A stretch of DNA of 64,000 bases, from positions 1-64,000 of the forward strand of contig JAIUOH010000007.1 of the NCBI GenBank assembly GCA_020161315.1, in the 5' to 3' direction. This DNA comes from Actinomycetota bacterium. GTDB taxonomy: Bacteria > Actinomycetota > Actinomycetes > Actinomycetales > Microbacteriaceae. Below, one piece after another: positions 48,130 to 64,000 of this stretch. Each line of letters opens with the position of its first letter. Positions within the stretch are counted from its first letter, which is position 1. The position numbers were made by a program, and so were the translations under genes. The notes beneath the pieces were generated by a model. The model was not told the origin of the DNA and made no database searches. It saw nothing but the letters and a program-made list of their open reading frames with translations.

Positions 48130-48225
48130 GACTCTCGCCCCTTGTCTGGTCTCGGGCCTGGTGTTCACATTCTCGCGAAACTTTCAGCCTGGTATGCCTA
48201 ATGATCCTCTAGATTACCCTCGGCT

Positions 48226-48260
48226 GACAATCGACACCCTCGATTTCGGGAGTGATTGTC
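48226..48260. promoter_or_regulatory. Inverted repeat in the abgT/SLC13 divergent promoter
   Basis: GACAATC (48226-48232) and GATTGTC (48254-48260) are perfect 7-bp inverted half-sites separated by 21 bases, between two divergent transporter genes. A dimeric regulator binding on one DNA face is plausible. No regulator gene is adjacent. Confidence 0.35.
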
Positions 48261-48295
48261 GTCCAGAACACACATTTCGGTCTACGCTCGCTCAT

Positions 48296-50137: not shown

Positions 50138-53100
50138 ATGTTCAAGAAAATTCTGGTTGCCAATCGTGGCGAGATCGCGATTCGCGCGTTTCGCGCCGCG
50201 CACGAGCTCGGCGCACGCACCGTCGCAGTGTTTCCCTACGAGGATCGCAACTCGCTGCACCGACTGAAAGCTGATGAGGCGTATCTAATCGGAGAGGTCG
50301 GCCACCCGGTTCGCGCCTACCTCGATGTCGCCGAGATCGTGCGGGTCGCGCGCGAAGCCGGATGCGACGCGATCTACCCCGGCTATGGCTTTCTGTCAGA
50401 GAACCCCGATCTCGCAGGGGCGGCTGAGGCCGCGGGAATTCGCTTCATCGGCCCCGGTCGCGTCGCCCTCGAAATGGCAGGCAACAAGGTTGCCGCGAAA
50501 GAGCATGCGATCGCCGCGGGTGTGCCCGTGCTCCGCTCTACCGCACCAACGACCGACATCGATGCGCTGCTCGAGGGTGCTCGCGAGATCGGCTACCCGG
50601 TATTCGCGAAGGCTGTCGCTGGCGGCGGCGGGCGCGGCATGCGGCGTGTGGAGCGAGAGGAAGACCTGCGCGACGCGCTCGAATCGGCAATGCGTGAGGC
50701 CGAGTCGGCATTCGGCGACCCCACGATGTTCATCGAGCAGGCGGTGCTGCGCCCCCGACACATCGAGGTGCAGGTTCTCGCCGACGCCACAGGCGCTACC
50801 GTGCACCTATTCGAACGCGATTGCTCGGTGCAGCGCAGGCATCAGAAGGTCGTCGAGATTGCGCCCGCACCGAACCTCTCACAGGCAAAGCGAGACGAGC
50901 TCACCCGCGACGCGATCGCGTTTGCGAAGTCGATCGGCTATGAAAATGCCGGTACCGTGGAGTTTCTGCTCGACACCGAGGGCGAGCGAGCCGGCGAGCA
51001 CGTCTTCATCGAGATGAACCCGCGCATCCAGGTCGAGCACACTGTAACCGAAGAGGTCACCGACGTCGACCTGGTTCGGTCTCAGATGCGGATCGCCGCC
51101 GGCGCGACGCTTGCAGAACTCGATCTAACGCAGGATCAAATCGAACTTCGCGGGGCGGCGCTGCAGTGCCGCATCACGACCGAAGACCCCGCAAACGACT
51201 TCAGGCCCGACCTCGGCCGAATCACCGCGTACCGCTCGCCGGGCGGCGGCGGGGTGCGCCTCGACGGCGGCACGATCAATGCGGGTGCGCAGATCAGCCC
51301 GCACTTCGATTCGATGCTTGCGAAGCTCACGTGCCGCGGCCGCAACTTCGAAGACGCCGTCGTGCGCGCCAGCCGTGCCCTCGCGGAGTTTCGCATTCGT
51401 GGCGTCTCAACGAACATTCCATTTTTGCAGGCGGTGCTTGCAGACCCAGATTTTCAGGCGGGCAACGTATCTACCAAGTTCATCGAGGAGCGGCCTGATC
51501 TGCTCGAAATGAACAAACCGCAGGATCGCGCAACAAGGCTGCTGCAACACGTTGCGAATGTCACCGTCAACCAGCCGAATGGGCCCCGACCAGGGAGCTT
51601 TGACCCGGCGACAAAGCTCCCCCCGATTGACCTCAGTATCCCGGCCCCGGTTGGCCAACGCCAGCGCCTGCTTGAGCTTGGCCCCGAGGCGTACGCGCAG
51701 TCTCTGCGAGCCCAGTCGAGCCTCGCGGTCACCGACACCACGTTCCGTGACGCGCACCAGTCGCTGCTCGCGACGCGGGTGCGCACCAAAGATCTGGCCC
51801 GCATTGCCCCGCATGTGGCTCGAATGACGCCGCAGCTGTGGTCGGTTGAGGCATGGGGCGGCGCGACCTACGATGTGGCTCTGCGATTTCTCAGCGAGGA
51901 TCCCTGGGAGCGGCTCGCGGTGCTGCGCGAAGCGCTACCCAACGTGCCGATTCAGATGCTGCTGCGCGGCCAGAATACGGTCGGCTACACGCCGTACCCG
52001 AAACAGGTCGCCGAGGCGTTCGTCGCTGAGGCTGCGGCGACCGGCGTCGATGTGTTTCGCATCTTCGACGCGCTCAACGATGTGAAGCAGATGCGGGCGG
52101 CAATCGACGCGGTGCGAGCAACCGGCACTACCGTTGCCGAGGTTGCAATGGCATACACCGGCAACCTGCTCTCACCCGCCGAAGACAAGTACACGCTTGA
52201 CTACTACCTGCACCTCGCAGACGAGATCGTCGCGGCGGGCGCGCACGTGCTCGCGATCAAAGATATGGCGGGGCTGCTGCGCCCGCAGGCTGCCTGGGCG
52301 CTGGTCACTGCGCTGCGAGAGCGCTTCGACCTGCCGGTGCACCTGCACACGCACGATACCCCCGGAGGACAGCTCGCTACCCTGCTGGCAGCCTCGGCGG
52401 CGGGTGTCGACGCGGTCGATGTCGCCTCAGCTCCGATGTCGGGCACCACGAGCCAGCCGTCGCTGTCGGCGCTCGTCGCGGCACTGGCAGACACCGAGCG
52501 CGACACCGGTCTCGATGCCGAGGCGGTGTACGCGCTCGAACCCTACTGGGACTCGGTGCGTGGTCTGTACCGCCCGTTCGAGTCTGGCTTGGCCTCGCCA
52601 ACGGGTCGCGTCTACTCACACGAGATTCCCGGTGGGCAACTTTCAAATTTGCGGCAGCAGGCCGGCGCGCTCGGCCTCGCCTCAAATTTCGAGAAGATCG
52701 AAGACATGTACGCGGCGGCAGATCGAATTCTCGGGCGCATTCCGAAGGTTACCCCGTCGTCGAAAGTCGTTGGCGACCTTGCGCTGCACCTCGCGGCGGT
52801 CGATGCCGATCCTTTCGATTTTGAGCAGAACCCGGGCTCGTACGACGTACCCGACTCGGTTGTCGGCTTTCTCGCCGGCGAGCTCGGCGAGATTCCTGGC
52901 GGTTGGCCCGAACCGTTCCGGTCGAAAGTGCTCGCGGGCCGCACCGTGAACATCCTTCCCTCCCCCGTCACGGCAGCGGATGAGGCCTTGCTTCGCGGAT
53001 CGAGCGAGCAGCGTCGGCGTACGCTCAATCGTTTACTCTTCCCTGCCCCGACCGCTCAGTTCGAGAGCACCCGTACGCAGTTCGGCGACCTCTCGGTGCT

Positions 53101-53536
53101 CGAAACCGCTGACTACCTGTACGGCCTCGTGCCCGGAGACGAGCACGCGATTGACCTCGCAAAAGGTGTGCGCCTCTATGTCGGACTCGAGGCAATCGGA
53201 GAGGCAGACGACAAGGGCGTGCGCACCGTCATGGTGCGCGTGAATGGTCAGCTGCGCCAGGTATTCGTCAAGGACGAGTCGATCGAGGTACAGACCGCTG
53301 CCGCCGAAAAGGCCGACCGCACGCAGCCCGGCCAGATCGCAGCGCCCTTCTCTGGCAACGTGACCATTCGTGCGGCCGTCGGCGACGCCGTCGATGCCGG
53401 CCAACCGATCGCCATGATCGAAGCAATGAAGATGGAAGCGGCGATTACCGCGCCTCTCGCAGGTACGGTGAACCGGCTCGCATTTGCCGGCACACGATCG
53501 GTCGATGCAGGCGACCTGATCCTCGTCATCGAGTAA
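50138..53536 (+). CDS. pyc: Pyruvate carboxylase
   Basis: 1132 aa single-chain enzyme, ATP-dependent carboxylation of pyruvate to oxaloacetate (anaplerosis, cytosol). Order: biotin carboxylase (MFKKILVANRGEIAIRAF; ATP-grasp with GGGGRGMRRV; about 1-450), carboxyltransferase (FRDAHQSLLATRVRTKD onward, about 530-800), allosteric/PC domain, and biotin carrier domain with the biotinyl lysine in EAMKMEAAI near the C-terminus. Normal actinobacterial length. A GGGAG lies 12 bases before ATG 50138, a loose fit. Confidence 0.98.
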   Translation: MFKKILVANRGEIAIRAFRAAHELGARTVAVFPYEDRNSLHRLKADEAYLIGEVGHPVRAYLDVAEIVRVAREAGCDAIYPGYGFLSENPDLAGAAEAAGIRFIGPGRVALEMAGNKVAAKEHAIAAGVPVLRSTAPTTDIDALLEGAREIGYPVFAKAVAGGGGRGMRRVEREEDLRDALESAMREAESAFGDPTMFIEQAVLRPRHIEVQVLADATGATVHLFERDCSVQRRHQKVVEIAPAPNLSQAKRDELTRDAIAFAKSIGYENAGTVEFLLDTEGERAGEHVFIEMNPRIQVEHTVTEEVTDVDLVRSQMRIAAGATLAELDLTQDQIELRGAALQCRITTEDPANDFRPDLGRITAYRSPGGGGVRLDGGTINAGAQISPHFDSMLAKLTCRGRNFEDAVVRASRALAEFRIRGVSTNIPFLQAVLADPDFQAGNVSTKFIEERPDLLEMNKPQDRATRLLQHVANVTVNQPNGPRPGSFDPATKLPPIDLSIPAPVGQRQRLLELGPEAYAQSLRAQSSLAVTDTTFRDAHQSLLATRVRTKDLARIAPHVARMTPQLWSVEAWGGATYDVALRFLSEDPWERLAVLREALPNVPIQMLLRGQNTVGYTPYPKQVAEAFVAEAAATGVDVFRIFDALNDVKQMRAAIDAVRATGTTVAEVAMAYTGNLLSPAEDKYTLDYYLHLADEIVAAGAHVLAIKDMAGLLRPQAAWALVTALRERFDLPVHLHTHDTPGGQLATLLAASAAGVDAVDVASAPMSGTTSQPSLSALVAALADTERDTGLDAEAVYALEPYWDSVRGLYRPFESGLASPTGRVYSHEIPGGQLSNLRQQAGALGLASNFEKIEDMYAAADRILGRIPKVTPSSKVVGDLALHLAAVDADPFDFEQNPGSYDVPDSVVGFLAGELGEIPGGWPEPFRSKVLAGRTVNILPSPVTAADEALLRGSSEQRRRTLNRLLFPAPTAQFESTRTQFGDLSVLETADYLYGLVPGDEHAIDLAKGVRLYVGLEAIGEADDKGVRTVMVRVNGQLRQVFVKDESIEVQTAAAEKADRTQPGQIAAPFSGNVTIRAAVGDAVDAGQPIAMIEAMKMEAAITAPLAGTVNRLAFAGTRSVDAGDLILVIE

Positions 53537-53631: not shown

Positions 53632-55122
53632 CTAGACCGTTTCGCGACGCTGCATCGTGAAGTAGCGAATCTCCTGGTACTCCTCGAGCCCCTCGGAGCT
53701 CCCCTCGCGACCGATGCCCGACTGCTTGACACCACCGAAGGGCGCGGCAACGTTCGAGAGCAGGCCGTTGTTGATGCCAACCATGCCGGTCTCGAGCGCT
53801 TCAGCAACGTTGAAGGCGCGATCCACGTTCTCGGTGAACACGAAGGCGGCAAGACCGAAGCAGGTGTCGTTCGCTTTGGCGATGGCTTCTTCCTGCGTCT
53901 TCACGCGCGTGATCGAGGCGATCGGACCAAAGATCTCGGTTGTTGTGATGTCTGCCGCCACCGGCACGTTGTCGAGCACGGTGGCCTCGAAGAAGTGGCC
54001 AGCGCGATCGAGCTTTGTTCCGCCGGTGCGCAGATCTGCCCCCTTGGCCGTCGCATCGGCCACGAGGTGTTGCAGACGTTCGACCGCGCGCCCGTCGACC
54101 ACTGGGCCGAGCTCGACCTCACGGTTGAGGGGGTTGCCCTGCACGAGGCCTGCCATCTTCTCAGTGAAGCCGGCGATGAAATCGTCGGCGATCCCTTCTT
54201 GAATGAACATGCGGTTCGCCGACACGCAAGTTTGGCCGCCGTTGCGCATCTTTGCGAGCATCGCGCCCTCGATTGCCCGGTCGAGGTCTGCGTCATCAAA
54301 GACCAGCAGCGGCGCGTTGCCGCCGAGCTCCATCGAGCTCTTCACGATGTTCTTCGCGGCAAGCCGCATGAGCGTCGAGCCCACCGGGGTTGAGCCGGTG
54401 AACGAGACCTTGCGCACGCGATCGTCGGTGATCACTGCCTCGCTGAACGCCGAGGCGTTGTTGGTGGTGATGACCTGCACGAGCCCTGCGGGCACGCCTG
54501 CCTCTTCGAAGAGCTTCACGGTGAGGTAGGTGGTCAGTGGGGTTAGCGTCGCCGGCTTCACCACGCAACCACAGCCAGCCGCGAGGGCCGGGGCGATCTT
54601 TCGGGTGGCCATCGCCATCGGAAAGTTCCAGGGCGTAATCAGCACGGCAAGACCGACCGGGCCACGAGTCGTGACCATCGTTGAACCGCCCTGAGGCGAT
54701 TCGCGGTAGCTACCGCCCGCGCGCAGCGCCTCTTCGGCGTACCAGCGAACATAGTCGGCTGCGTACTGCACCTCGGCGTACGACTCGGTGATGGTCTTGC
54801 CCATCTCGCGGCTCATGATGAGGGCCAGGTCGTCGCGGTTCTCGATGAGCTTGGCGTAGACCGCATGCAGCACATCGGAGCGTTTGCGCGGCGTGGTCTT
54901 TGCCCAGGCCCGCCCAGCGGCGTCGGCAAGCGTGACGGCCTCGAGAGCGGTCTCGACCGTGTGGTTCGGGATCGTGGCGATCTCTTCGCCTGTGGCGGGG
55001 TCGAGCACAGGGATTGTGCCATCGATACCGGTCAGCAGGCTGCCGGGCACTGCGGCAAGCGCCGCCTTCGAACGGGCGTAGAGTTCGGGGTCGGCTTCTG
55101 CGAATGCGGCTTCGTATGCCAT
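53632..55122 (-). CDS. Succinate-semialdehyde dehydrogenase-like aldehyde dehydrogenase
   Basis: 496 aa NAD(P)-dependent aldehyde dehydrogenase. Motifs FTGSTPVGSTLMRLAAKN, ELGGNAPLLVFDDADLD (general base Glu) and GGQTCVSANRMF (nucleophile Cys), with the C-terminal YFTMQRR tail seen in the GabD/SSADH branch. It would oxidise succinate semialdehyde or a related omega-carboxy aldehyde. AAAGGA precedes ATG 55122 by 7 bases. It lies 69 bases downstream of the gamma-glutamyl hydrolase gene and is likely in its operon. Confidence 0.9.
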   Translation of the reverse strand: MAYEAAFAEADPELYARSKAALAAVPGSLLTGIDGTIPVLDPATGEEIATIPNHTVETALEAVTLADAAGRAWAKTTPRKRSDVLHAVYAKLIENRDDLALIMSREMGKTITESYAEVQYAADYVRWYAEEALRAGGSYRESPQGGSTMVTTRGPVGLAVLITPWNFPMAMATRKIAPALAAGCGCVVKPATLTPLTTYLTVKLFEEAGVPAGLVQVITTNNASAFSEAVITDDRVRKVSFTGSTPVGSTLMRLAAKNIVKSSMELGGNAPLLVFDDADLDRAIEGAMLAKMRNGGQTCVSANRMFIQEGIADDFIAGFTEKMAGLVQGNPLNREVELGPVVDGRAVERLQHLVADATAKGADLRTGGTKLDRAGHFFEATVLDNVPVAADITTTEIFGPIASITRVKTQEEAIAKANDTCFGLAAFVFTENVDRAFNVAEALETGMVGINNGLLSNVAAPFGGVKQSGIGREGSSEGLEEYQEIRYFTMQRRETV

Positions 55123-55191
55123 GGTGGGGTCCTTTCGAGGCTTGTGTTCAAGAGCGGGCGGCGCTTGGCCGCTCGCGAGAGTCGGGTGAGA

Positions 55192-55950
55192 TCAGGCAGT
55201 TTCTGCGGCGAGACGCTCGCGCACGCGGGCCACGAACCAGTCGAAGAGCGGCTGGTGCTCTGGCATCTTCTCGGGGTGCCACTGCACGCTCAGCGCCAAC
55301 CAGTCATCATCAACCGGCTCGATGGCCTCGATGATGCCATCGGCAGCGCGCGCGACGACACGGAATCCGTCGGCGCAGCGGTCGATCGCCTGGTGATGAA
55401 TCGAGTTGGTCTTCACGGTTGTGCCGAAGACCTGACCAATGAATCGGCTGTCGGGGCTGATTTCGACGCCGTGCTCGGAGACCGGGGACTCTCCGGGTGC
55501 GGCAGGGCCGGGTGTGTGCCGTACCGGTTCTTGCGCAATGTCTTGAATCAGGGTGCCGCCGAATGCGACGTTCAGCAGTTGGTGACCGCGGCAGATCGCG
55601 AAGAGCGGGATCCCCCGACGCTTTGCCTCTCTGATGAGTGCAAGGTCGAACGCGTCTGCGGCAGTGGTGAAGCTGCGGCTGCCCCGGTTCTCCTGCCCGT
55701 AGAAGGAGGGGTCAACGTCTTCGCCGCCAATCATCACGAGTGCGTCGGCCCCCGCGAGCAGCTGCGCCGCACGCTCTGGAAGGTCTCGGGGAATCTGCAG
55801 CACCAACGCCCCAGCGTTCTGCACACGCATCACGTAATCGGTAATGGAGGCTTCGATGTCAAATGAGCCGTAGGGTGCGATGTCCATCGTCTTCCGCCAG
55901 GTATTGACGTAGACGATTGGAACCAATTCTTCGTTGATTTGATTCGTCAT
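55192..55950 (-). CDS. Gamma-glutamyl-GABA hydrolase-like class I amidotransferase (PuuD-type, C26)
   Basis: 252 aa. Nucleophile Cys in FAICRGHQLLNVAFGG, oxyanion and His/Glu of the triad in SIHHQA and QWHPEKMPEHQPL. PuuD removes glutamate from gamma-glutamyl-GABA in the Puu putrescine route; relatives act on other gamma-glutamyl amides. ATG 55950 follows TACGAT (55958-55963) by 7 bases. That -10 overlaps a GGTATA-type operator, so repression at the promoter is likely. It faces the permease gene across a 179-base divergent gap. Confidence 0.9.
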   Translation of the reverse strand: MTNQINEELVPIVYVNTWRKTMDIAPYGSFDIEASITDYVMRVQNAGALVLQIPRDLPERAAQLLAGADALVMIGGEDVDPSFYGQENRGSRSFTTAADAFDLALIREAKRRGIPLFAICRGHQLLNVAFGGTLIQDIAQEPVRHTPGPAAPGESPVSEHGVEISPDSRFIGQVFGTTVKTNSIHHQAIDRCADGFRVVARAADGIIEAIEPVDDDWLALSVQWHPEKMPEHQPLFDWFVARVRERLAAETA

Positions 55951-55957
55951 AGCTGTT

Positions 55958-55971
55958 ATCGTATACCGTAC
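55958..55971. promoter_or_regulatory. GGTATA-type operator over the puuD-like -10 box
   Basis: The forward strand has GTATACCGTAC at 55961-55971; read on the minus strand this is GTACGGTATAC followed by the -10 TACGAT. The 9-mer TATACCGTA (55962-55970) recurs at 60038-60046 before the synthetase-like gene. GGTATA direct repeats are the known target of FCD-type GntR regulators such as E. coli NanR. Confidence 0.6.
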
Positions 55972-55979
55972 TCGGTGTT

Positions 55980-56004
55980 TTGTCGCCTACTTTCTTGGCG
56001 ACAA
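55980..56004. promoter_or_regulatory. 8-bp inverted repeat in the divergent permease promoter region
   Basis: TTGTCGCC (55980-55987) and GGCGACAA (55997-56004), perfect arms with a 9-base spacer. It may be a second operator or a leader hairpin of the permease mRNA. Confidence 0.4.
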
Positions 56005-56129
56005 CCGGCACAAAACAGAATTCTCCTCATCTCGTTCGCCGCGATCGTAGAGTCTTCGCCCCGCCGCCGAGATACCAAAAGTGAACAAGGCTGCCGCACC
56101 GAAGCGGCATCCCTTGATGAAAGGTGACG

Positions 56130-57641
56130 ATGGTGTCCTCCTCAACAACCGATACGGCGTCGACGCAGACGCTGCGCAGCGGGGCCGTCGGTGCACCCGC
56201 GATCGCGTTCTTCGTGATCGCCGCAGCCGCCCCACTGACCTGCGTCATGGGCGTCACTCCCCTGCTCATCGGCTACGGTGTCGGCATCTATGCGCCGCTC
56301 ATCTACGTCATCATCGGCCTCGCGCTGCTGCTGTTCGCCGTCGGCTACGTCGCGATGAGCCGCCGCATTCGCAATGCCGGATCGATGTACGCGTACATTG
56401 CCCAGGGCATTGGGCCCTCGTGGGGCGCCGGAGCATCGTTCGTCGCGCTCGCGGCGTACTTCTGCTCGATCATCACGCTGCTCGGGTTTTTCGGCTTCGT
56501 GGCACACACGCTCTTTCTCGATCTGTTTGGGCTTGACATTCCGTGGTACCTGCTCTGCCTCGGTGCCATCATTCTGTGCGTGCTGCTCGGTCGCAGCAAC
56601 CTCGAACTCGGCGCAAAGGTACTCGGCCTCCTGCTGATTGCGGAGCTCTCGATTCTGCTGATCCTCGCAGTCACGGTGATCTTCACGGGCGGCGCCGAGG
56701 GCGTTACCGTCGAATCGTGGAACCCCGCAGGCCTCTTCGGCGGCGGCATTGGAATCAGCCTCGCATTCGCCTACGCCTCATACATCGGCTTCGAACAAAC
56801 CGCCATCTACTCTGAAGAGGCGAAAGACCCAAAGACCTCGGTCAAGCGCGCAACCATCGGCGCCGTCATCTTCACTTCTGCCTTTTACGCGCTGCTCACC
56901 TGGGTGCTCGTGCTCGCCTACGGCAAGAGCGATGCAATGCAGGTCGCGCTCGAAGATCCGGGCAACATGGTCGTGAACGCGGCCCAGGATTACCTCGGCC
57001 AGGGCGTGGTCTGGGTGATTCAGATTCTCGTTGTCACCGGCTCATTCGCTGCGATCCTCTCGTTTCACAACGCGATCTCACGCTACTTCTTCTCGCTCGG
57101 TCGCGAGAAGGTGCTGCCGAAGTCGCTCGGCTACGTGCGCGAGATCGCGCAGTCACCCCACCGCGGCAGCCTTACCGTCGGCGTGGTCAACACCGTGCTG
57201 CTACTCATCCTGTTCGTGCTCGGCGCAGACCCCTACCTCGACATCTTCACCTGGGGTGCCGCGGCCTCGACCGTCGGCTTCGTAGCCCTGCAGACGCTCT
57301 GCTCGGTCGCGATCGTCATGTACTTCCGCAGGCACCGCGATGGCGATGAGGGACTGTGGACGACGACGATCGCCCCGGTTCTCGCATCGCTCGTGCTCGG
57401 AGCCGGCGTCGTGCTGATCGTCGCAAACTTCGGCAACCTCGTCGGCGGCGAGGTCGGCGCCGCGCCCTATGTTGTTGCGGCCATCTACCTCGCCGTGGGC
57501 GTCATCGGCTTTATCGTCGCCGAGGCCATGAAGCGTAAGCGTCGCCAGGAGTGGGCAGCCATCGGCACCGGCCGTATCTCCGTCATCGGCACCGACGAAA
57601 TGTCGGCCGAGTCGTCGACCGAGCCATCGCGGACCGCCTAA
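56130..57641 (+). CDS. APC-family amino acid/amine permease
   Basis: 503 aa with twelve predicted helices. Starts MVSSSTTDTAS and enters the first helix at AFFVIAAAAPLTCVMG. Typical APC features include the SYIGFEQTAIYSEEAKDPKTSVKRATIGA segment and late helices with a short basic C-terminal tail. It is a proton-coupled importer for amino acids or polyamines. I chose ATG 56130 because AAAGG lies 5 bases upstream; GTG 56124 is the alternative. It faces puuD-like and precedes the GntR regulator. Confidence 0.9.
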   Translation: MVSSSTTDTASTQTLRSGAVGAPAIAFFVIAAAAPLTCVMGVTPLLIGYGVGIYAPLIYVIIGLALLLFAVGYVAMSRRIRNAGSMYAYIAQGIGPSWGAGASFVALAAYFCSIITLLGFFGFVAHTLFLDLFGLDIPWYLLCLGAIILCVLLGRSNLELGAKVLGLLLIAELSILLILAVTVIFTGGAEGVTVESWNPAGLFGGGIGISLAFAYASYIGFEQTAIYSEEAKDPKTSVKRATIGAVIFTSAFYALLTWVLVLAYGKSDAMQVALEDPGNMVVNAAQDYLGQGVVWVIQILVVTGSFAAILSFHNAISRYFFSLGREKVLPKSLGYVREIAQSPHRGSLTVGVVNTVLLLILFVLGADPYLDIFTWGAAASTVGFVALQTLCSVAIVMYFRRHRDGDEGLWTTTIAPVLASLVLGAGVVLIVANFGNLVGGEVGAAPYVVAAIYLAVGVIGFIVAEAMKRKRRQEWAAIGTGRISVIGTDEMSAESSTEPSRTA

Positions 57642-57656
57642 CCGAGGTCACATCGC

Positions 57657-57705
57657 AGCGCGGCGGGCAGAAGTGAAGGCTTCACCCGCCGCGCTCTTGT
57701 TTTAC
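57657..57705 (+). terminator. Terminator after the APC permease
   Basis: AGCGCGGCGGG (57657-57667) and CCCGCCGCGCT (57685-57695) pair perfectly over 11 bp, with an inner AGTGAA/TTCAC pairing, and a T-rich CTTGTTTTAC follows. The regulator gene therefore probably has its own promoter. Confidence 0.75.
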
Positions 57706-57787
57706 ATCGAGCACCGGAACGTCAAGGGTCGAGCTCGCGCCTACCACTATTCTGGGAGAAACCAGGATCACCGAAAGTGAACGGCCA

Positions 57788-58438
57788 TTGGCAATACAGA
57801 AAATTTCTTTTCAGCGCGAAACACTTGGCGAGGCCGCCTATCGACACCTCTTCGAGGGCTTCCTCAACAAGGAGCTGCGACCCGGCACCCGCTTGCTCAT
57901 GGATGAACTCGCCGAGCAAATGGGCATCAGCCGCACCCCCGTGCGCGAAGCCCTGCAGCGCCTCGAGCGCGAGGGCGTCATTGAGGCCCACGGCCGTCGA
58001 GGCTACGTCGTGTGCGAGACCGACCCCACCGAACTCGATCAGCGCTACCAGGCTCGTGAGGCAATCGAGGGCTACTCCGTCGAGAAGGCCACGGCACTCG
58101 GCGGCGGCACCGTCGCCCGCATTCGAGCGCGCTACGATGCCCTGCTGCAACAGCCGCAGACCACGCCAGAAGAGGTCTTCCGGGTCAATCGCGAGTTTCA
58201 CCGCATGATCATTGAGGAGATCGGCAACGACCACCTCATCGAGGCGTTCGACATGCTCTGGAACCGGGTGCTCACCGCCGACATCTGGGCAGCCATGCTC
58301 GACAGCAACGACGTCGTCGGAGACTTCGACCGCGCCCACCGCGACCTCATCGCGGCGATCGAGTCGGGTGACCCTGATCGCGCACGTGAGACCGCTATTT
58401 TGCACATTCACGACGGTCGCGTGCTTCACGAACACTGA
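57788..58438 (+). CDS. GntR-family transcriptional regulator, FCD type
   Basis: 216 aa. N-terminal winged helix (MDELAEQMGISRTPVREALQRLEREGVIEAHGRRGYVV) and an all-helical FCD ligand domain with the metal-site histidine pattern (NREFHRMIIEEIGND and ILHIHDGRVLHEH). The FCD class often binds organic acids or metals. It starts at TTG 57788 by frame and family N-terminus; no good ATG exists. Best candidate to bind the GGTATA-type sites at 55961 and 60038. Confidence 0.9.
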   Translation: MAIQKISFQRETLGEAAYRHLFEGFLNKELRPGTRLLMDELAEQMGISRTPVREALQRLEREGVIEAHGRRGYVVCETDPTELDQRYQAREAIEGYSVEKATALGGGTVARIRARYDALLQQPQTTPEEVFRVNREFHRMIIEEIGNDHLIEAFDMLWNRVLTADIWAAMLDSNDVVGDFDRAHRDLIAAIESGDPDRARETAILHIHDGRVLHEH

Positions 58439-58494
58439 TCGCCCTGCCTGTTTTCGGGGTTTGGCGGCACTTGCCTACCAGCCCTCATTGCGAG

Positions 58495-58560
58495 ACAACA
58501 CGGTTCCGCCGAAACAACACGAGATTATTGTGTGGTTTCGGCGGAACCGTGTTGTTTCGG
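58495..58560. repeat. Long perfect hairpin with internal repeated arm
   Basis: Arms 58495-58515 and 58535-58555 are perfect 21-bp inverted repeats; four of the next five base pairs also match around a 9-base loop. In addition CCGAAACAACACG (58508-58520) is the reverse complement of 58548-58560, so the element can fold in two alternative ways. It lies between convergent genes (GntR and synthetase-like) in a 236-base gap without genes. Confidence 0.65.
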
Positions 58561-58624
58561 TGCGATCGCGAGCCAAGCGGGTTCTGGTTCAGCGAGCGGA
58601 TCGGCAGAAACCATCGACACATGA

Positions 58625-58662
58625 ATGGCTGAGGCCCCAGATTGCTCCGGGGCCTCAGCCAT
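58625..58662 (-). terminator. Perfect 14-bp hairpin after the synthetase-like gene
   Basis: ATGGCTGAGGCCCC (58625-58638) and GGGGCCTCAGCCAT (58649-58662) with a 10-base loop, 12 bases after the stop codon on the minus strand. No long T run, but position and strength suit a terminator. Confidence 0.6.
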
Positions 58663-58674
58663 GTTCAGCACGAA

Positions 58675-59979
58675 TCAGATCGCACCGATGTAGCGGTCTC
58701 GCTCAATGTCAGATACTGGAATCGTCACAGCGTCGTATTCGCGCTTCACCGTGTCGATGTAGGTGTCGATCAGGAGCTCCGGGAAACTCTTACGGGCAAG
58801 ATCTGACGCCTCCAATGCCTCAATCGCGGCGGGCACCGAACGCGGCAGCGGCTTCGCGTTGGGGTCGGTGTAGGCGTTGAGATCGCATCGCGGCCCAGGC
58901 TTTACCCCCGTGCGCACCCCGTCCAGGCCGGCTGCGAGCTGGCCCGCGACCGCAAGGTAGAGGTTGCTGGTCGAGCAGGGATCACGCTGCTCAAAGCGAT
59001 AGCTGCCCTCTGCGTCGATCATGCGAATCGCAACGGTGCGGTTATCGCCGCCCCAGGAGTCGGTGGTGGGGCTGAGCGTGAAGTCCTGGCGCCTCTTGTA
59101 ATCATTGACGTTCCAAGAGCCGAAGAGCGAAAACTCTGCAATGCGCTTCTGCAGGCCGCCGAGGTAATGCATCGCATATTCCGATGGACCACCGGCGGCC
59201 TCGCCAACGCCGTCAAAGAGGTTCTTGCCATCGCGCCACATTGACTGGTGAATGTGCAGGCCGCTGCCACTCTCTTCGTTAAAGGGCTTCGCCATGTACG
59301 TCGCTACCAGGCCGTTCTTCGCGGCAAGCTCCTTGACCGCGTTGCGCATAAGGATAGCGTCGTCAGCCGCTTTCAGCGCCTTGTCGTACCGCAGCGTGAT
59401 TTCGAGCTGCCCGGTGCCGTATTCCTGCATACCTGCTTCGACGGGAAGACCGTAGGCAACGAGCCCATCGATAATGTCGGTGAGCACCTCATCGTAGCGC
59501 GACCCGTCGTATACGCCGTAGGTGTTCATCTGCCGAATCAGCGGCTTGTGCGTCTCAGGGTCGAGAAGATAGAACTCCATCTCGAGCGCGATCATCGCAT
59601 CGACGCCGTCTTTCTCGTACTCCTGCAAGATCGAGATCAACGCGTTTCGCGGGCAGAGCTCAGACGGAGTACCGTCAGGGTTCTCGAGCGAGCAGAAGAC
59701 CTGGGTGATGCCTGGCCGCCAAGGGACCGGGCGCAGCGTGCTCGCGATGGGTTTGATCACCATGTCAGGGTAACCCTGGTCCATGCCACCGGCGGGTGAT
59801 TCATCAGGGCACTCGCAGCGCACACCCCAGTACAGGGGTGCACCGGGAATGTGCGATCCCTCGTGGGCAACACGAGGCCACTGTGCCGCTGGCACTTTCT
59901 TTCCTCGCAAGACGCCGAAAACGTCAGCGAAGATCATCTCGACGATGCGGGTTCCCTCGGGGAGTTCTATTGCGGACAC
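58675..59979 (-). CDS. Glutamine-synthetase-like gamma-glutamyl-amine ligase
   Basis: 434 aa GS-fold ligase. N-terminal beta-grasp with RIVEMIFADVFGVLRGKKVP, catalytic domain with metal/substrate residues in ALEMEFYLLD, EYGTGQLEI, GSGLHIHQSMW and AIRMIDAEGSYRFEQRDP. It is a GlnA3/GlnA4/PuuA-type enzyme rather than a true glutamine synthetase (no GlnA adenylylation-loop context), joining glutamate to an amine. GTG 59979 has GGAGG 5 bases upstream, which rules out the longer frame to 60267. The substrate amine is unknown. Confidence 0.88.
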   Translation of the reverse strand: MSAIELPEGTRIVEMIFADVFGVLRGKKVPAAQWPRVAHEGSHIPGAPLYWGVRCECPDESPAGGMDQGYPDMVIKPIASTLRPVPWRPGITQVFCSLENPDGTPSELCPRNALISILQEYEKDGVDAMIALEMEFYLLDPETHKPLIRQMNTYGVYDGSRYDEVLTDIIDGLVAYGLPVEAGMQEYGTGQLEITLRYDKALKAADDAILMRNAVKELAAKNGLVATYMAKPFNEESGSGLHIHQSMWRDGKNLFDGVGEAAGGPSEYAMHYLGGLQKRIAEFSLFGSWNVNDYKRRQDFTLSPTTDSWGGDNRTVAIRMIDAEGSYRFEQRDPCSTSNLYLAVAGQLAAGLDGVRTGVKPGPRCDLNAYTDPNAKPLPRSVPAAIEALEASDLARKSFPELLIDTYIDTVKREYDAVTIPVSDIERDRYIGAI

Positions 59980-60037
59980 CAAATCCTCCTTGATTGGTTC
60001 AAACCGTGTCGGTACTTCAATGTCCGACTCGTTAACA

Positions 60038-60050
60038 TATACCGTATACC
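60038..60050 (-). promoter_or_regulatory. Double GGTATA operator upstream of the synthetase-like gene
   Basis: Read on the minus strand, GGTATACGGTATA holds two direct GGTATA repeats one base apart, 59 bases before the GTG start, in an AT-rich stretch. It shares the 9-mer TATACCGTA with the puuD-like promoter. The layout matches NanR-type GGTATA repeats known from E. coli, though the regulator here would be the local FCD GntR. Confidence 0.65.
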
Positions 60051-60131
60051 AAATATTATTTCTGCGAAAGAGGAACATCGGACGCGATGCTACTCGCGGC
60101 CAGCCCGTTCTCTGCGTTTCGATTGAGCTCA

Positions 60132-60184
60132 CGCGGATAGGCGCCGTCGACTGAGCTCGTCGAAGTGATCGGCGCCTATCCGCG
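60132..60184. repeat. 14-bp inverted repeat around a TGAGCTCGTCGAAG core
   Basis: CGCGGATAGGCGCC (60132-60145) and GGCGCCTATCCGCG (60171-60184) pair perfectly; the 25-base loop carries TGAGCTCGTCGAAG, almost identical to the smc-embedded repeat core. It lies just after the SDR stop codon and may terminate it, but no T tract is present. Confidence 0.6.
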
Positions 60185-60190
60185 CGATCG

Positions 60191-60982
60191 CTAGCCCGCG
60201 AGTTCGGCTTCGAGCTTCTGTCGCAGCAGTCCGCCCTCGGCACCGCCGTCGACCACCAGGTCTTCACCCGAGATCCAGGATGCCTCGTCCGAAGCGAGAA
60301 AAGAGATGGCCGCGGCGATCTCTTCGGGGCGGCCGTGACGCCCCGCGAACTCCTTCAGCGGGTCGAGCTGATCTTCACCGATCGAGTCGTAGAAATCTTG
60401 CAACAGCGGCGTCTCGGTAGGCCCTGGGCTCACCGTGTTCATGCGCATGCCCTGCACGAGCTGCCGCGACGAAATCATGGTCCACACGATCACGGTCGCC
60501 TTCGCAAGGTTGTACGCCTCGAACGACTCCTGCCCCTCCGGCAAGAAGGGGGCGACATTGACTCGCGCTTCCTCGAGCGTCTGCGAACGCAGCAGCGCCT
60601 TGACGCCCTCGATGCGCTTGCGCCATTCGAAGCCGACCGTCGAGGCGATGGTCACGACATTCGACTCCATCCGCATTCGCTTCACCGCGTGCTCGGCGAA
60701 TCGACGCATGCCGAGAAAGTTGACGGCCAGCGCCGCATCCACGCCACTCTTGCCCGAAATGCCGGCGGCATTCACCAGCACGTCGATGGTTTCGGGCAAC
60801 TCATTGACTGCTGCGTCGATGGCTGCCGGATCCATCAGATCTACGATCACGGTCGGCACATCGCGCGGCGACGGGTTTCGATCTACCACGACCACCCGGT
60901 CACCATCGTCCAGAAACCGCTCGACTACCTTGTCGCCAATGCCAGATGCGCCGCCGGTGATGACGACAGTTCTTCCACTCAT
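60191..60982 (-). CDS. Short-chain dehydrogenase, coniferyl-alcohol-dehydrogenase-like
   Basis: 263 aa classical-type SDR. Cofactor loop VVITGGASGIGDKVV (TGxxxGxG), acidic end of beta2 VVVVDRN suggests NAD preference, NAAG motif, and the catalytic YxxxK as YNLAKATVIVWT. The long loop before it (WRKRIEGVKALLRSQTL) and the GMRMNTVSPGPTETPLLQDF segment resemble the coniferyl-alcohol/3-alpha-hydroxysteroid dehydrogenase subgroup. The substrate is therefore likely a bulky alcohol. GGAAGAG precedes ATG 60982 by 4 bases. Confidence 0.85.
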   Translation of the reverse strand: MSGRTVVITGGASGIGDKVVERFLDDGDRVVVVDRNPSPRDVPTVIVDLMDPAAIDAAVNELPETIDVLVNAAGISGKSGVDAALAVNFLGMRRFAEHAVKRMRMESNVVTIASTVGFEWRKRIEGVKALLRSQTLEEARVNVAPFLPEGQESFEAYNLAKATVIVWTMISSRQLVQGMRMNTVSPGPTETPLLQDFYDSIGEDQLDPLKEFAGRHGRPEEIAAAISFLASDEASWISGEDLVVDGGAEGGLLRQKLEAELAG

Positions 60983-61041
60983 ACTGCTCTTCCGTTTCTT
61001 CTTTAAGATGACGACAGCGCTACGCTGCGCCGAATGGGGTG

Positions 61042-61067
61042 GGTGGATCAGCTAGTGCGGATCCACC
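61042..61067 (-). terminator. Hairpin between ALDH and SDR genes
   Basis: GGTGGATC (61042-61049) and GATCCACC (61060-61067) form a perfect 8-bp stem with a 10-base loop, 8 bases after the ALDH stop. It may attenuate or protect rather than end the transcript, since SDR has only a ribosome site and no clear promoter. Confidence 0.4.
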
Positions 61068-61074
61068 GCAAACA

Positions 61075-62589
61075 TCAACTCGGGTCGATGAGCACCGACT
61101 TGCTCTTCGTGTACTCAAGCACGCTCTCGCGCCCGAGTTCGCGACTGTTGCCCGAGAGGTGGTGCCCACCGAAGCTGATGCCGGGGTCGAGCTTGCCCAC
61201 TGTGTTCACCCAGACGAGGCCGCCGCGCAGTCGCTGGGTGAGCCGGTGAGCACGCGAGAGATCGCGCGTCCAGATCGCAGCCGCGAGATCATACTCTGAG
61301 GTGTTCGCGAGCCGCAGCGCCTCCTCCTCGTCGCGGAAGGTGATGACCGACAGCACCGGGCCGAAGATCTCCTCGCGCGCGACCCGCATGTCGTTGTCGA
61401 CTCCCGCGACAATGGTCGGTTGCATATAGAAGCCCTCCGTGCCAACAGCCTCGCCGCCGACGGCGATCTCTCCGCCCTCTTCTCGCGCGATATCGACGTA
61501 ACTGCGCACCGTGTCGAGTTGCTTCTCCGAGACGAGCGGCCCCAGGGTTGTCGCTTCGTCGAGCGGATCGCCGAGCGTGAGCTTCGCGGTCTCTTCTGCG
61601 AGCAACTGCAGCATCTCTTGCTCAATACTCTCGTGCACGAACAGGCGCGTGGGGGCTATGCAGACCTGGCCGGCGTTCTCCCAAATGGCGTCGGCAGACC
61701 CGGCCGCGGCTTTGCGCAGGTCGGCGTCAGGAAAGACGATGTTCGCCGTCTTCCCGCCAAGCTCGACACTCACTTTCTTCATCTGCGGGCTCGCGACCTC
61801 GAGAATTCGCTTGCCCACGGGCGATGACCCGGTGAACGAGACCTTTCGCACCAGCTCATGACTGAGCAGGGCCTCGCCGACCACCCGGCCGGCACCGGTC
61901 ACGACGTTCAGCACGCCGTCTGGCAGGCCGACCTCACGGGCGAGATCGGCAAGGTACAGAGTGGTGTACGACGAGATCTCGGCCGGCTTCATTACGACGG
62001 TGTTACCCGCGGCAAGGGCCGGGCCGATCTTGTGCGCGGCCATCACGACGGGAAAATTCCATGGTGTGATCGCCGCGCAGACGCCGATCGGCTGGCGCAG
62101 GGTCATTCCAAAGAAGGGACTGCGCACCGGGTTGATATCGCCCTCGATCTTCGTGGGCCAGCCGCCGTAGTAGCGGAAGGTGAGCGAGACTCCCCCGATG
62201 TCGTCCCGCGCCTGCACAATGGGTTTACCCATATCGAGCGATTCGAGCTCAGCGAGGGTCTCGAGGTGCTCATCGACCGCATCGGCAAGGTCAAAGAGAT
62301 ATTGCGCGCGCCTGGCCGGGCTGATGTCGCGCCACTCGGGGCTCTCGAGCGCTGCCGCGGCCGCGGTCACGGCAACATCGACATCTTCGACCGTCGCCGC
62401 GGCGATACGGCCGAGCACGCGCCCCGTTGCCGGGTCAATCGATTCGAAGGTCGCCCCATTTTTCGCCTGCTGATCCCAGGCTCCGCCGATGCGCAGGCCC
62501 TGCACCCGATCGATGAAGGCGAGCGTGCGTTCGCCAATCGGGCGGCAGTGGCCGCGATAGGCGTCGGCACCGGTGCCTGACTCTGCCAT
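61075..62589 (-). CDS. NAD(P)-dependent aldehyde dehydrogenase
   Basis: 504 aa ALDH superfamily enzyme, betaine/gamma-aminobutyraldehyde dehydrogenase-like. Motifs: PWNFPVVMAAHKIGPALAAG, SFTGSSPVGKRILEVAS, ELGGKTANIVFPDADL (Glu) and NAGQVCIAPTRL (Cys). It would oxidise an aldehyde made by the SDR or P450. I prefer ATG 62589 because GGGAGAG lies 6 bases upstream; ATG 62604 is the alternative. It is 27 bases after the P450 stop, so both are in one operon. Confidence 0.9.
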   Translation of the reverse strand: MAESGTGADAYRGHCRPIGERTLAFIDRVQGLRIGGAWDQQAKNGATFESIDPATGRVLGRIAAATVEDVDVAVTAAAAALESPEWRDISPARRAQYLFDLADAVDEHLETLAELESLDMGKPIVQARDDIGGVSLTFRYYGGWPTKIEGDINPVRSPFFGMTLRQPIGVCAAITPWNFPVVMAAHKIGPALAAGNTVVMKPAEISSYTTLYLADLAREVGLPDGVLNVVTGAGRVVGEALLSHELVRKVSFTGSSPVGKRILEVASPQMKKVSVELGGKTANIVFPDADLRKAAAGSADAIWENAGQVCIAPTRLFVHESIEQEMLQLLAEETAKLTLGDPLDEATTLGPLVSEKQLDTVRSYVDIAREEGGEIAVGGEAVGTEGFYMQPTIVAGVDNDMRVAREEIFGPVLSVITFRDEEEALRLANTSEYDLAAAIWTRDLSRAHRLTQRLRGGLVWVNTVGKLDPGISFGGHHLSGNSRELGRESVLEYTKSKSVLIDPS

Positions 62590-62616
62590 GTTCTGCTCTC
62601 CCATTGCCTTCGACGC

Positions 62617-63882
62617 CTACGCGGCGATCTTGTTCATACGAATGGGCAAACGCTTTAGGCCGTGCGTCAGATTCGAACGCAGGCGCTTCACCTCACCGGC
62701 AAGCTCGAAGCTCTCAACCTGCTCGATCTGGTGCTGCAGCAGCACCTTCAGCTCGAGACGCGCAAGCGAGTTACCGAGGCAACGATGCGCGCCGCCACCG
62801 CCGAAGGCGAGGTGGAAATTGGGCTTACGCTCAATGTCAAAGGTGTGGGGATTCGTGAAGACGCGCTCATCGTAGTTCGCCGAGGCGTACCAAATTGCGA
62901 CTTTGTCACCGGCCTCGAGTTTTTTACCGTGCATCTCGGTATCCTGCGTGACCGTGCGACGGAAATGGTGGATCGGCGTGGCCCAGCGCAGAATCTCTTC
63001 GACCGCGCTGTCTACGAGCTGCGGATTCTCGCGCAGCTTCGTCCACTGATCTGGAAAGTCACAGAACGCCTTCGCCGCGTGCGAGAACGCCATGCGGGTT
63101 GTTTCATTGCCTGCGATCACGAGCAGCGAGAAGAAGTTCGCGAGCTCGTGCGGGGTGAGCTTGCGTCCGTCGACCTCGCTCGTGATCAACAGTGAGAAGA
63201 CGTCGTGGCCGAGATCCTTTTCACGACCGATGCGAAGCTTGTCGCCGTACTCCCACAGCTCTCGACCGGCGGGACTCGAGAACTGGTACTTGCTGTTCTC
63301 GGCGAGCACCTCAGGGGTGAGGGCAGTGCGCGGGGCATGGTCCGGGTCAGAACTTGCGATCATCTCGTCGCCAAGCTCCATGATGTAGTGCGCCTCACTG
63401 TCGGGCACATCGAGCAGCGCCGCGAGCACGCGCACGGGAATCTCAGAGGAGATCTTCGAGACGTACTCGATCTCCCCTTCTTCGGCAAGGGCCGCCGTGA
63501 ATGTCTCGCTCACGATGGTCTCGACTCGCTCGTCCCAGTTGCGACGCACGATGCCCGGGTTGAAGCTGGGCGCGAGGATCTTGCGATACCCGGTGTGCAG
63601 GGGTGGATCGGTGTCGATCATGGTGCGGCGTCCCTGCAGATCGGCCTCGGGAATGTCCTCGAGGGTGGTGCCGCCCTTCTCTGATGAGAAGGTGCCCGTG
63701 TCGCGGCTCAGCGCAACGACGTCCTCGTATCGCGTAAACGACCAGAAACCGCGGCTGCCGTCCCCCGGTTCCGTCCAGTGCGCGGGGTCTTCATCGCGGA
63801 GAGTTTTGAAGAACTCGTGGGGAACCGAACCCTCAAACGCGAGCGAAGAGAGCAGGTGGTCATTCTCGTGACCTACAGACAT
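62617..63882 (-). CDS. Cytochrome P450
   Basis: 421 aa bacterial class I-type P450. I-helix oxygen-activation motif VIAGNETTR, K-helix ExxR (EEILRW), and haem ligand loop FGGGGAHRCLGNSLARLE. The HFRRTVTQDTEMHGKKLEAGDKVAIWYASANYDERVF region resembles the CYP124/125/108-like actinobacterial group, but a precise family cannot be given. It needs a ferredoxin and reductase, not seen in the window. AAAGGA lies 6 bases before ATG 63882; the longer frame to 63993 is not used. Confidence 0.93.
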   Translation of the reverse strand: MSVGHENDHLLSSLAFEGSVPHEFFKTLRDEDPAHWTEPGDGSRGFWSFTRYEDVVALSRDTGTFSSEKGGTTLEDIPEADLQGRRTMIDTDPPLHTGYRKILAPSFNPGIVRRNWDERVETIVSETFTAALAEEGEIEYVSKISSEIPVRVLAALLDVPDSEAHYIMELGDEMIASSDPDHAPRTALTPEVLAENSKYQFSSPAGRELWEYGDKLRIGREKDLGHDVFSLLITSEVDGRKLTPHELANFFSLLVIAGNETTRMAFSHAAKAFCDFPDQWTKLRENPQLVDSAVEEILRWATPIHHFRRTVTQDTEMHGKKLEAGDKVAIWYASANYDERVFTNPHTFDIERKPNFHLAFGGGGAHRCLGNSLARLELKVLLQHQIEQVESFELAGEVKRLRSNLTHGLKRLPIRMNKIAA

Positions 63883-63947
63883 GGTGAATCCTTTCGATGT
63901 GTGTTGCGCGGCAACCCTGCCGCGGGAAGAGCGAGCGACGCCCGGTA

Positions 63948-64000
63948 TCAGACCAGTTGGGCTTTGAGGTCTGCGAGCACGCCAGGCACCCATGCCAGGG
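63948..64000 (-). CDS. 3' end of an unidentified gene (cut by window edge)
   Basis: The last codons read AWVPGVLADLKAQLV before a TGA at 63948-63950, a plausible amphipathic C-terminus, on the same strand as and 65 bases upstream of the P450 gene. Too short to name. A neighbouring P450 makes a redox partner or another pathway enzyme possible, but nothing shown supports a specific call. Confidence 0.4.
   Translation of the reverse strand, partial: LAWVPGVLADLKAQLV

Follow-up and report, generated by a model that had tools for sequence, protein, structure and literature searches.

A cytochrome P450 lineage paired with glutamine synthetase-like genes, and a candidate gamma-glutamyl-amine locus in Leucobacter

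The DNA analysed here (the window) is a stretch of 64,000 nucleotides, positions 1 to 64,000 of contig JAIUOH010000007.1 from an Actinomycetota bacterium whose genus we took as Leucobacter. At 53632–64000 it holds a block of genes that includes a cytochrome P450 and a glutamine synthetase (GS)-like ligase. The P450 belongs to a lineage that is regularly found next to GS genes, and this lineage-wide P450–GS partnership, above the Leucobacter locus alone, is the most valuable lead of our analysis. As a whole, the locus is best explained as a route for breaking down a small primary amine via gamma-glutamylated intermediates, which we consider probable; a branched C5 substrate ending as methylsuccinate is a more tentative part of this explanation.

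Lineage P450s were chosen by P450 similarity alone (E ≤ 1e-90). Matches of this strength were obtained in 22/199 genomes of the family and 53/396 genomes of the phylum, the window's own being included in both; for most genomes of the phylum sample, just four candidates each were scored. Wide regions were taken for 7 of the 21 non-self matches of the family scan. The neighbourhood census covered 24 of the 74 matched genomes, which were chosen after their neighbourhoods had been seen and are not a blind sample. It was performed with the profiles PF00067 (P450) and PF00120 (GS), and 113 P450 matches were merged by hand into 91 places by joining fragments of one gene. A GS gene is present within 10 kb of 24/26 lineage P450s (23/25 without the window's own, which is ∼4 kb away from its GS gene), compared to 3/65 of the other P450s; in these same 24 genomes, the association gives a Fisher p of 1.5e-16. 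One of the three other P450s near a GS gene shares its cluster with a lineage P450 (genome G839).

A wider count was performed on 72 loci, 63 in the lineage (window included) and 9 outside it, the latter designated after the tree had been seen. Short duplicates, loci below 7 kb and loci L006, L007, L009, L037, L136 and L137 were left out of this count. Within 9.5 kb, the 63 lineage loci contain GS in 60 (all except L100, L106 and L110), aldehyde dehydrogenase (ALDH) in 52, an amidotransferase- or C26-type hydrolase in 48, FAH-type genes in 37, APC permeases in 31, MarR regulators in 29, HpaD-type genes in 26 and flavodoxin in 2, whereas GS was found in 0/9 outside loci. By a count of genome labels, 12 families of the phylum have GS-bearing members; such members also occur in Streptomyces, Embleya, Mesorhizobium, Ruegeria, Sagittula, Novosphingobium and Hydrogenophaga records, and the lineage extends to Alpha- and Betaproteobacteria. 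Among the 46 plasmid records with a P450 match, 11 were examined; GS lies beside the P450 in 8 of them and not in L128, L130 and L134. The Mesorhizobium and two Embleya plasmids also turned up in the GS search and hence are not blind hits. In addition, many lineage P450–GS loci (L119–L125 and others) carry HpaR-, HpaE-, HpaD- and HpaG-like genes, a homoprotocatechuate-like ring-cleavage set. Neither the P450 lineage nor a P450 route for isoamylamine is described among the open-licence paper matches listed, which is weak evidence of novelty; the matches listed instead are Ipu, naphthylamine, PipA-type and itaconate papers.

The P450-only tree unites the 64 lineage rows (SH-aLRT 96) and separates them from the non-GS rows, from the P450s of the Ipu loci of Paenarthrobacter aurescens TC1 and Microbacterium YJN-G, and from two P450s of Gordonia KTR9. 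When three PDB chains were included and the tree was searched carefully, the group grew to 65 rows at 89/89: CYP268A2 joined it as a long basal branch, and the CYP125 ancestor stayed outside. The idea of a strongly supported GS clade was weakened by this, and the exact boundary of the lineage is therefore moderately supported. Within the group, the two Leucobacter P450s make up a separate long branch, outside the HpaD-linked subgroups. The nearest solved P450s include CYP124, deposited as a methyl-branched lipid omega-hydroxylase, and CYP125, deposited as a steroid C26-monooxygenase. We also compared the residues of 64 inside and 17 outside rows, using the numbering of the 458-residue open reading frame (ORF). 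Glu112 is present in 88% of the inside and 12% of the outside rows, and His343 in 86% and 18%; in the F-G stretch, the values are 100% and 12% for Phe238 and 100% and 0% for Pro241. These residues are candidates for holding the glutamyl group. Arg122 (100% and 24%) was set aside as a diagnostic residue, as the CYP125 ancestor chain carries it too.

The initial annotation had placed eight genes in one 10-kb block, and Pfam and NCBIfam profile matches confirmed all eight, in the families given, within 53632–64000. The genes for the P450, ALDH2, the short-chain dehydrogenase (SDR), GS, PuuD and ALDH1 are located on the minus strand; GS and PuuD are separated by the plus-strand GntR and APC genes. 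The features of the block are as follows.

53632–55122, minus: ALDH1, succinate-semialdehyde dehydrogenase (SSADH)-like, proposed methylsuccinate-semialdehyde dehydrogenase (Pfam Aldedh, 524 bits)
55192–55950, minus: predicted PuuD-like gamma-glutamyl amide hydrolase of the Peptidase C26 family (Peptidase_C26, 190 bits)
56124–57641, plus: APC-family amine/amino-acid permease (AA_permease_2, 93.7 bits)
57788–58438, plus: GntR/FCD regulator, proposed for the amine half (GntR, 60.2 bits; FCD, 72.9 bits)
58675–60039, minus: predicted GS-like gamma-glutamyl-amine ligase (Gln-synt_C, 274 bits)
60191–60982, minus: SDR dehydrogenase, coniferyl-alcohol-dehydrogenase-like, proposed for alcohol oxidation (NF009092, 237.3 bits, cut-off 242)
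61075–62604, minus: ALDH2, proposed to oxidise the gamma-glutamylated aldehyde (Aldedh, 563 bits)
62617–63882, minus: cytochrome P450 of the GS-associated lineage (p450, 76.1 bits)
63948–64000, minus, continuing to contig position 64412: 3' end of a separate flavodoxin gene, proposed P450 electron donor (translation and flavodoxin-domain models)

The best NCBIfam model for ALDH1 is SSADH, with 533 bits and below the cut-off of 646. The hydrolase translation contains Cys in AICRGHQ and His and Glu in QWHPE. The ligase ORF opens at 60267; 58675–60039 was taken for analysis, with a provisional start site. The P450 ORF opens at 63993 (62617–63993); because the L. celer ORF begins at the residue aligned with 63882, a start at 63882 is more likely than one at 63993. 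One ORF antisense to the GntR/FCD gene (57722–58435, minus) gave zero Pfam matches.

The contig runs to 100,992 bp, and its coordinates are identical to those of the window. Beyond 64000, where ferredoxin and reductase genes had been anticipated, a reductase gene is indeed present; the ferredoxin was not borne out, its place being taken by a flavodoxin. A ferredoxin at contig 64052–64270 was considered and rejected: this 72-residue ORF matched nothing, and the true gene is the flavodoxin, in another frame. The genes that continue the block past 64000 are as follows.

Contig 63948–64412, minus: flavodoxin of 154 residues, directly upstream of the P450 (best model MioC, 85.8 bits, cut-off 158)
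Contig 64447–65808, minus: adrenodoxin-reductase (AdR)/FprA-type reductase (phmmer to 1cjc, E 6e-39)
Contig 65975–67129, minus: family III CoA-transferase, CoAT1
Contig 67176–67844, minus: second GntR regulator
Contig 68031–69182, plus: acyl-CoA dehydrogenase (best solved relative FadE3, 4iv6)
Contig 69195–70328, plus: Ict-like CoA-transferase, CoAT2
Contig 70438–71379, minus: CitE/RipC-like lyase
Contig 71446–72312, minus: protein with a weak thioesterase match, under the cut-off
Contig 72438–73349, plus: Ich-like hydratase

The block is conserved in related genomes. A P450 scan of genome contigs gave five loci, among which only Leucobacter celer subsp. astrifaciens is close (90%), the rest being 33–41% identical; GS is present in four of the five and missing from the fifth (L037, 33% identical). 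L. celer keeps the order reductase, flavodoxin, P450, ALDH2, SDR, GS, GntR, APC, PuuD, and its CoAT1, second GntR, acyl-CoA dehydrogenase, CoAT2 and CitE-like genes adjoin this run. In genome G992, the genes from the hydratase through ALDH1 are the same, in the same order and relative orientation, except for the thioesterase-like gene, which was not found in the G992 or L. celer loci. The flavodoxin is 93–94% identical in L. celer and G992. ALDH1 adjoins PuuD in the window and G992; in L. celer it is 87% identical and lies 9.8 kb past PuuD, with an aminotransferase gene directly before it. Between PuuD and this aminotransferase–ALDH1 pair, L. celer (L150, 5656–8494) carries a benzaldehyde-dehydrogenase-like ALDH gene and a FAD-dependent oxidoreductase-like gene, neither of which occurs at this position in the window or G992. 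The P450 (at least 89% identical) is present in three of the 54 genomes of the genus: the window's own, G974, where it has the same contig place as the L. celer P450, and G992; the other P450 matches are at most 37% identical. The shared contig place in G974 and L. celer is the basis for taking the genus as Leucobacter. Since order is kept in two other genomes of the genus and the P450–GS pairing recurs across phyla, the gene block is more than chance, and the expectation of a conserved neighbourhood held in L. celer and G992 and, for the pairing, in the census. The 395 other sampled genomes of the order gave no GS match at 1e-100, so the locus is rare and was perhaps acquired.

The kind of pathway is known, and the locus is a variant of it by its P450 lineage, flavodoxin partner and downstream module. 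According to PMC6776027, a gamma-glutamyl amide is the P450 substrate in the Ipu pathway. The TC1 plasmid pTC2 carries permease, ALDH, IpuC, SDR, amidotransferase, P450, ferredoxin and reductase genes together, and the YJN-G plasmid pYJNG carries the same kit in a row; the combination of genes is therefore not unusual, contrary to what had been supposed. The Ipu pathway is reportedly also present in Pseudomonas KIE171. Like the TC1 locus, the window block unites an APC permease, a GS-like ligase, an SDR, an amidotransferase-type hydrolase, a P450 with redox partner and an ALDH. This shared kit would fit an Ipu locus for isopropylamine or another xenobiotic amine in which the P450 had been replaced. 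However, the window P450 shares only 33.2% identity over 368 residues with its TC1 counterpart, from which the tree separates it, and is not an orthologue; the ligase is 34.2% identical to IpuC over 78% of its 530-residue ORF. The Ipu loci have ferredoxin and reductase genes, whereas the window contig has those for a flavodoxin and an AdR-type reductase; both plasmids carry an alanine-dehydrogenase gene, and none is present among the genes identified in the window block. Compared to the two hydrolase genes of pTC2, the window has one, and its SSADH-like ALDH1 and methylsuccinate-type module are further differences from Ipu. We consider an Ipu locus with a replaced P450 improbable.

The E. coli Puu pathway for putrescine consists of a ligase, a FAD amine oxidase, an ALDH and a gamma-glutamyl hydrolase. 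The window shares with it the logic of ligase, ALDH, gamma-glutamyl hydrolase and permease, but has a P450 where Puu has the amine oxidase PuuB; the genes identified between 53632 and contig 73349 include no FAD amine oxidase. A Puu-type cluster was rejected, as GS (213 bits), ALDH2 (458 bits) and the hydrolase (87.9 bits) are far under the curated PuuA, PuuC and PuuD cut-offs of 650, 850 and 266 bits, respectively. The glutamate-tagging logic also operates for 1-naphthylamine, with a dioxygenase, according to PMC11335346.

The initial annotation had further linked the block to piperidine and morpholine loci, and the joint action of GS-like ligase, P450, SDR and ALDHs, and PuuD-like hydrolase that it proposed survives as an amine pathway and falls as a cyclic-amine one. 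The pip/mor loci (CYP151) share with the block a P450, a GS-like gene and a GntR-type regulator; in PMC9477822, Gulosibacter locus numbers place glutamine synthetase genes next to PipA/BioI P450 genes. For comparison, we used a KTR9 P450 that we take to be CYP151C. Over 321 residues the window P450 is 28.7% identical to it, the two are widely separated in the tree, and the window contig has a flavodoxin rather than a ferredoxin. On this P450 distance the cyclic-amine locus was rejected, and degradation of pyrrolidine, piperidine or morpholine in the pip/mor manner is the least probable of the explanations considered.

The reactions and the substrate of the pathway are inferred from gene content, gene order, conservation and P450–GS co-occurrence. 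The APC permease would import the amine, and the GS-like ligase would couple it to the gamma-carboxyl group of glutamate. The P450, receiving electrons from the flavodoxin and the AdR-type reductase, would then hydroxylate a methyl group of the amide; the SDR and ALDH2 would take the alcohol to the carboxylic acid, and the PuuD-like hydrolase would release glutamate and an omega-amino acid. These five steps, from import to hydrolysis, are likely in our judgement. In a sixth step, a transaminase and the SSADH-like ALDH1 would convert the omega-amino acid into a dicarboxylic acid, which the neighbouring module suggests to be methylsuccinate. Finally, the CoA-transferase, acyl-CoA dehydrogenase, Ich-like hydratase and citramalyl-CoA-lyase-like enzymes would convert methylsuccinate into pyruvate and acetyl-CoA. 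With methylsuccinate as the end acid, the starting amine would be isoamylamine or 2-methylbutylamine: terminal methyl oxidation of gamma-glutamyl-isoamylamide or -2-methylbutylamide, followed by hydrolysis, transamination and ALDH1, would yield methylsuccinate. This C5 assignment is tentative, although it would give roles to most genes of the block, except the thioesterase-like protein and the second CoA-transferase.

For the ligase, the alignment (rows GS3_own and GS_Lceler left out) revealed that the Glu of the YEAP/DEAP loop, which we take to be Glu327 of Salmonella GS with its role there, is retained by two GlnA-type enzymes of the window's genome, whereas the window ligase has Leu there. 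The six aligned GS-like proteins of other P450 loci likewise have another residue in its place. Such a loss is in keeping with an enzyme that ligates amines rather than ammonia.

For the module, the Ict-, Ich- and Ccl-like proteins are 55%, 49% and 42% identical, respectively, to those of a Burkholderia plasmid cluster (L157) with the layout hydratase, acyl-CoA dehydrogenase, CoA-transferase and lyase. According to PMC12290011, clusters of such layout serve methylsuccinate use via an acyl-CoA dehydrogenase. Homologues of Ich, Ict and Ccl occur together in the module adjoining the P450 block. The pseudomonadal itaconate/methylsuccinate cluster is ich-mcd-mmgE-ict-ccl; it shares the Ict-, Ich- and Ccl-like genes with the window contig, whose module differs in having two CoA-transferases. 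No MmgE/PrpD gene is present among the genes identified in the block, where no search aimed at it was made. An Ich-like hydratase lies on the P450 contig in all three P450-bearing genomes of the genus (∼8.5, 13 and 11 kb away), compared to matches in 4/51 of the remaining genomes (64%, 53%, 44% and one partial at 55%); the hypergeometric p for this co-occurrence is 0.0014, with shared ancestry ignored.

Several observations weigh against the C5 pathway or parts of it. The best solved relative of the ligase, 5dm3, is deposited as an L-glutamine synthetase and also lacks the loop Glu, so loss of this residue is no proof of an amine ligase; ligase and hydrolase score below every NCBIfam cut-off they met. 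The hydrolases of the 63 lineage loci are of GAT type in 42 and C26 type in 12, mostly unlike the window's. The best NCBIfam model for the acyl-CoA dehydrogenase is acryloyl-CoA reductase, under its cut-off, and the protein is just 31% identical to its Burkholderia counterpart. Amine half and module carry separate GntR regulators, so the two may be mere neighbours. No CitE-like or Ich-like matches were found in the other 70 loci examined (1e-15), and the C5 substrate could be limited to Leucobacter. No aminotransferase was found in the block of the window strain, and 10 class III matches lie elsewhere in its genome. As to CoAT2, matches at 49–50% occur in three of the other 70 loci; in L067 (G962) and L069 (G938), both outside the genus, the CoAT2-like gene (∼50%) adjoins GS and amidotransferase genes, with no CitE- or Ich-like matches.

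The separate regulators would also suit a straight-chain amine such as n-butylamine. Here, glutamylation and omega-oxidation by the P450 would yield gamma-glutamyl-GABA, from which the PuuD-like hydrolase would release GABA, ALDH1 would be an ordinary SSADH, and the module would be unrelated. Consistent with this, the hydrolase adjoins the SSADH-like ALDH in the window and G992, and class III aminotransferase matches lie beside SSADH-like genes elsewhere in the genome (C1 and C7). Since the Ich/CitE/CoAT/dehydrogenase module lies beside the P450 in 3/3 P450-bearing genomes of the genus, we regard a straight-chain substrate as unlikely.

An aromatic amine of the phenethylamine or tyramine type, whose gamma-glutamyl amide would be hydroxylated or N-dealkylated by the P450 before ALDH2 takes the aryl acetaldehyde, is less likely still. 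The best NCBIfam model for ALDH2 is the phenylacetaldehyde dehydrogenase StyD (500.6 bits, below the cut-off of 800), ahead of PuuC. GS and an HpaD-like dioxygenase gene are both within 9.5 kb in 25/63 lineage loci, and on the Ruegeria TM1040 megaplasmid (L129, 3484–11677), P450, GS-like and amidotransferase genes adjoin paaABCD, which hints at an aromatic amine in that strain. Two PaaA/PaaC-type matches exist elsewhere in the window genome. However, this genome has zero HpaD matches, no ring-cleavage gene is present among the genes identified in the block, and the Leucobacter P450s stand on their long branch apart from the HpaD-linked subgroups.

Beyond Leucobacter, the P450 lineage may consist of dedicated gamma-glutamyl-amide hydroxylases across Actinomycetota and Proteobacteria, glutamate being a removable handle for poor P450 substrates. 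Many members would then feed homoprotocatechuate-like cleavage of aromatic amines, and Leucobacter would be an aliphatic, flavodoxin-using offshoot that mineralises leucine- and isoleucine-derived amines via methylsuccinate. This extended scheme is speculative, and we would not expect all of it to hold. It ties a large P450 lineage to one testable chemical logic. Should gamma-glutamyl amides be what the lineage oxidises, this would suggest a function for the P450s of many little-studied Actinomycetota at once and make glutamylation a general means of steering P450s. If the C5 route with methylsuccinate as its product is true, amino-acid-derived amines would be joined to methylsuccinate metabolism, which would provide a biological source for a compound whose degradation genes are widespread among soil bacteria. 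In PMC12290011, methylsuccinate is proposed to be environmentally important.

Genes for a pyruvate carboxylase and a DASS/CitMHS-type transporter directly precede the block (50138–53536 and 48128–49864, respectively); they were unmatched in the searched G992 and L. celer stretches.

The redox partners of the P450 have relatives in other settings. The RDX locus of Gordonia KTR9, which we take to be xplAB, resembles the window contig in its AdR-type reductase (39%), its flavodoxin domain (38%) and a GS-like sequence directly upstream, but identity to the window drops to only 26% for the GS-like sequence and 24% for the P450. These values, and the equally close reductases of other loci, do not support a direct descent of xplAB from such a locus. 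On the KTR9 plasmid pGKT2 (L007, 10888–12090), the GS-like sequence (26–28%) is directly upstream of the annotated xplB-like reductase and overlaps its start, an arrangement that fits a GS–reductase fusion; such a fusion at xplB is said to be known from the literature.

On the Pseudosulfitobacter plasmid pDSM107133_b (L006, 11992–13673), the reductase and flavodoxin have close relatives (42% and 43%, respectively) in a stretch without an annotated P450, in a cluster that contains a ring-hydroxylating dioxygenase gene. Another genome of the window's genus, which lacks this P450 (L182, G096:C1:2786500-2806400), has Ich-like (64%) and CitE-like (61%) genes adjoining homologues of the flavodoxin (41%) and the AdR-type reductase (39%) and a distant P450 (26%). 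Zero GS matches were found in the L182 stretch, in which the flavodoxin pair and the hydratase–lyase pair recur together.

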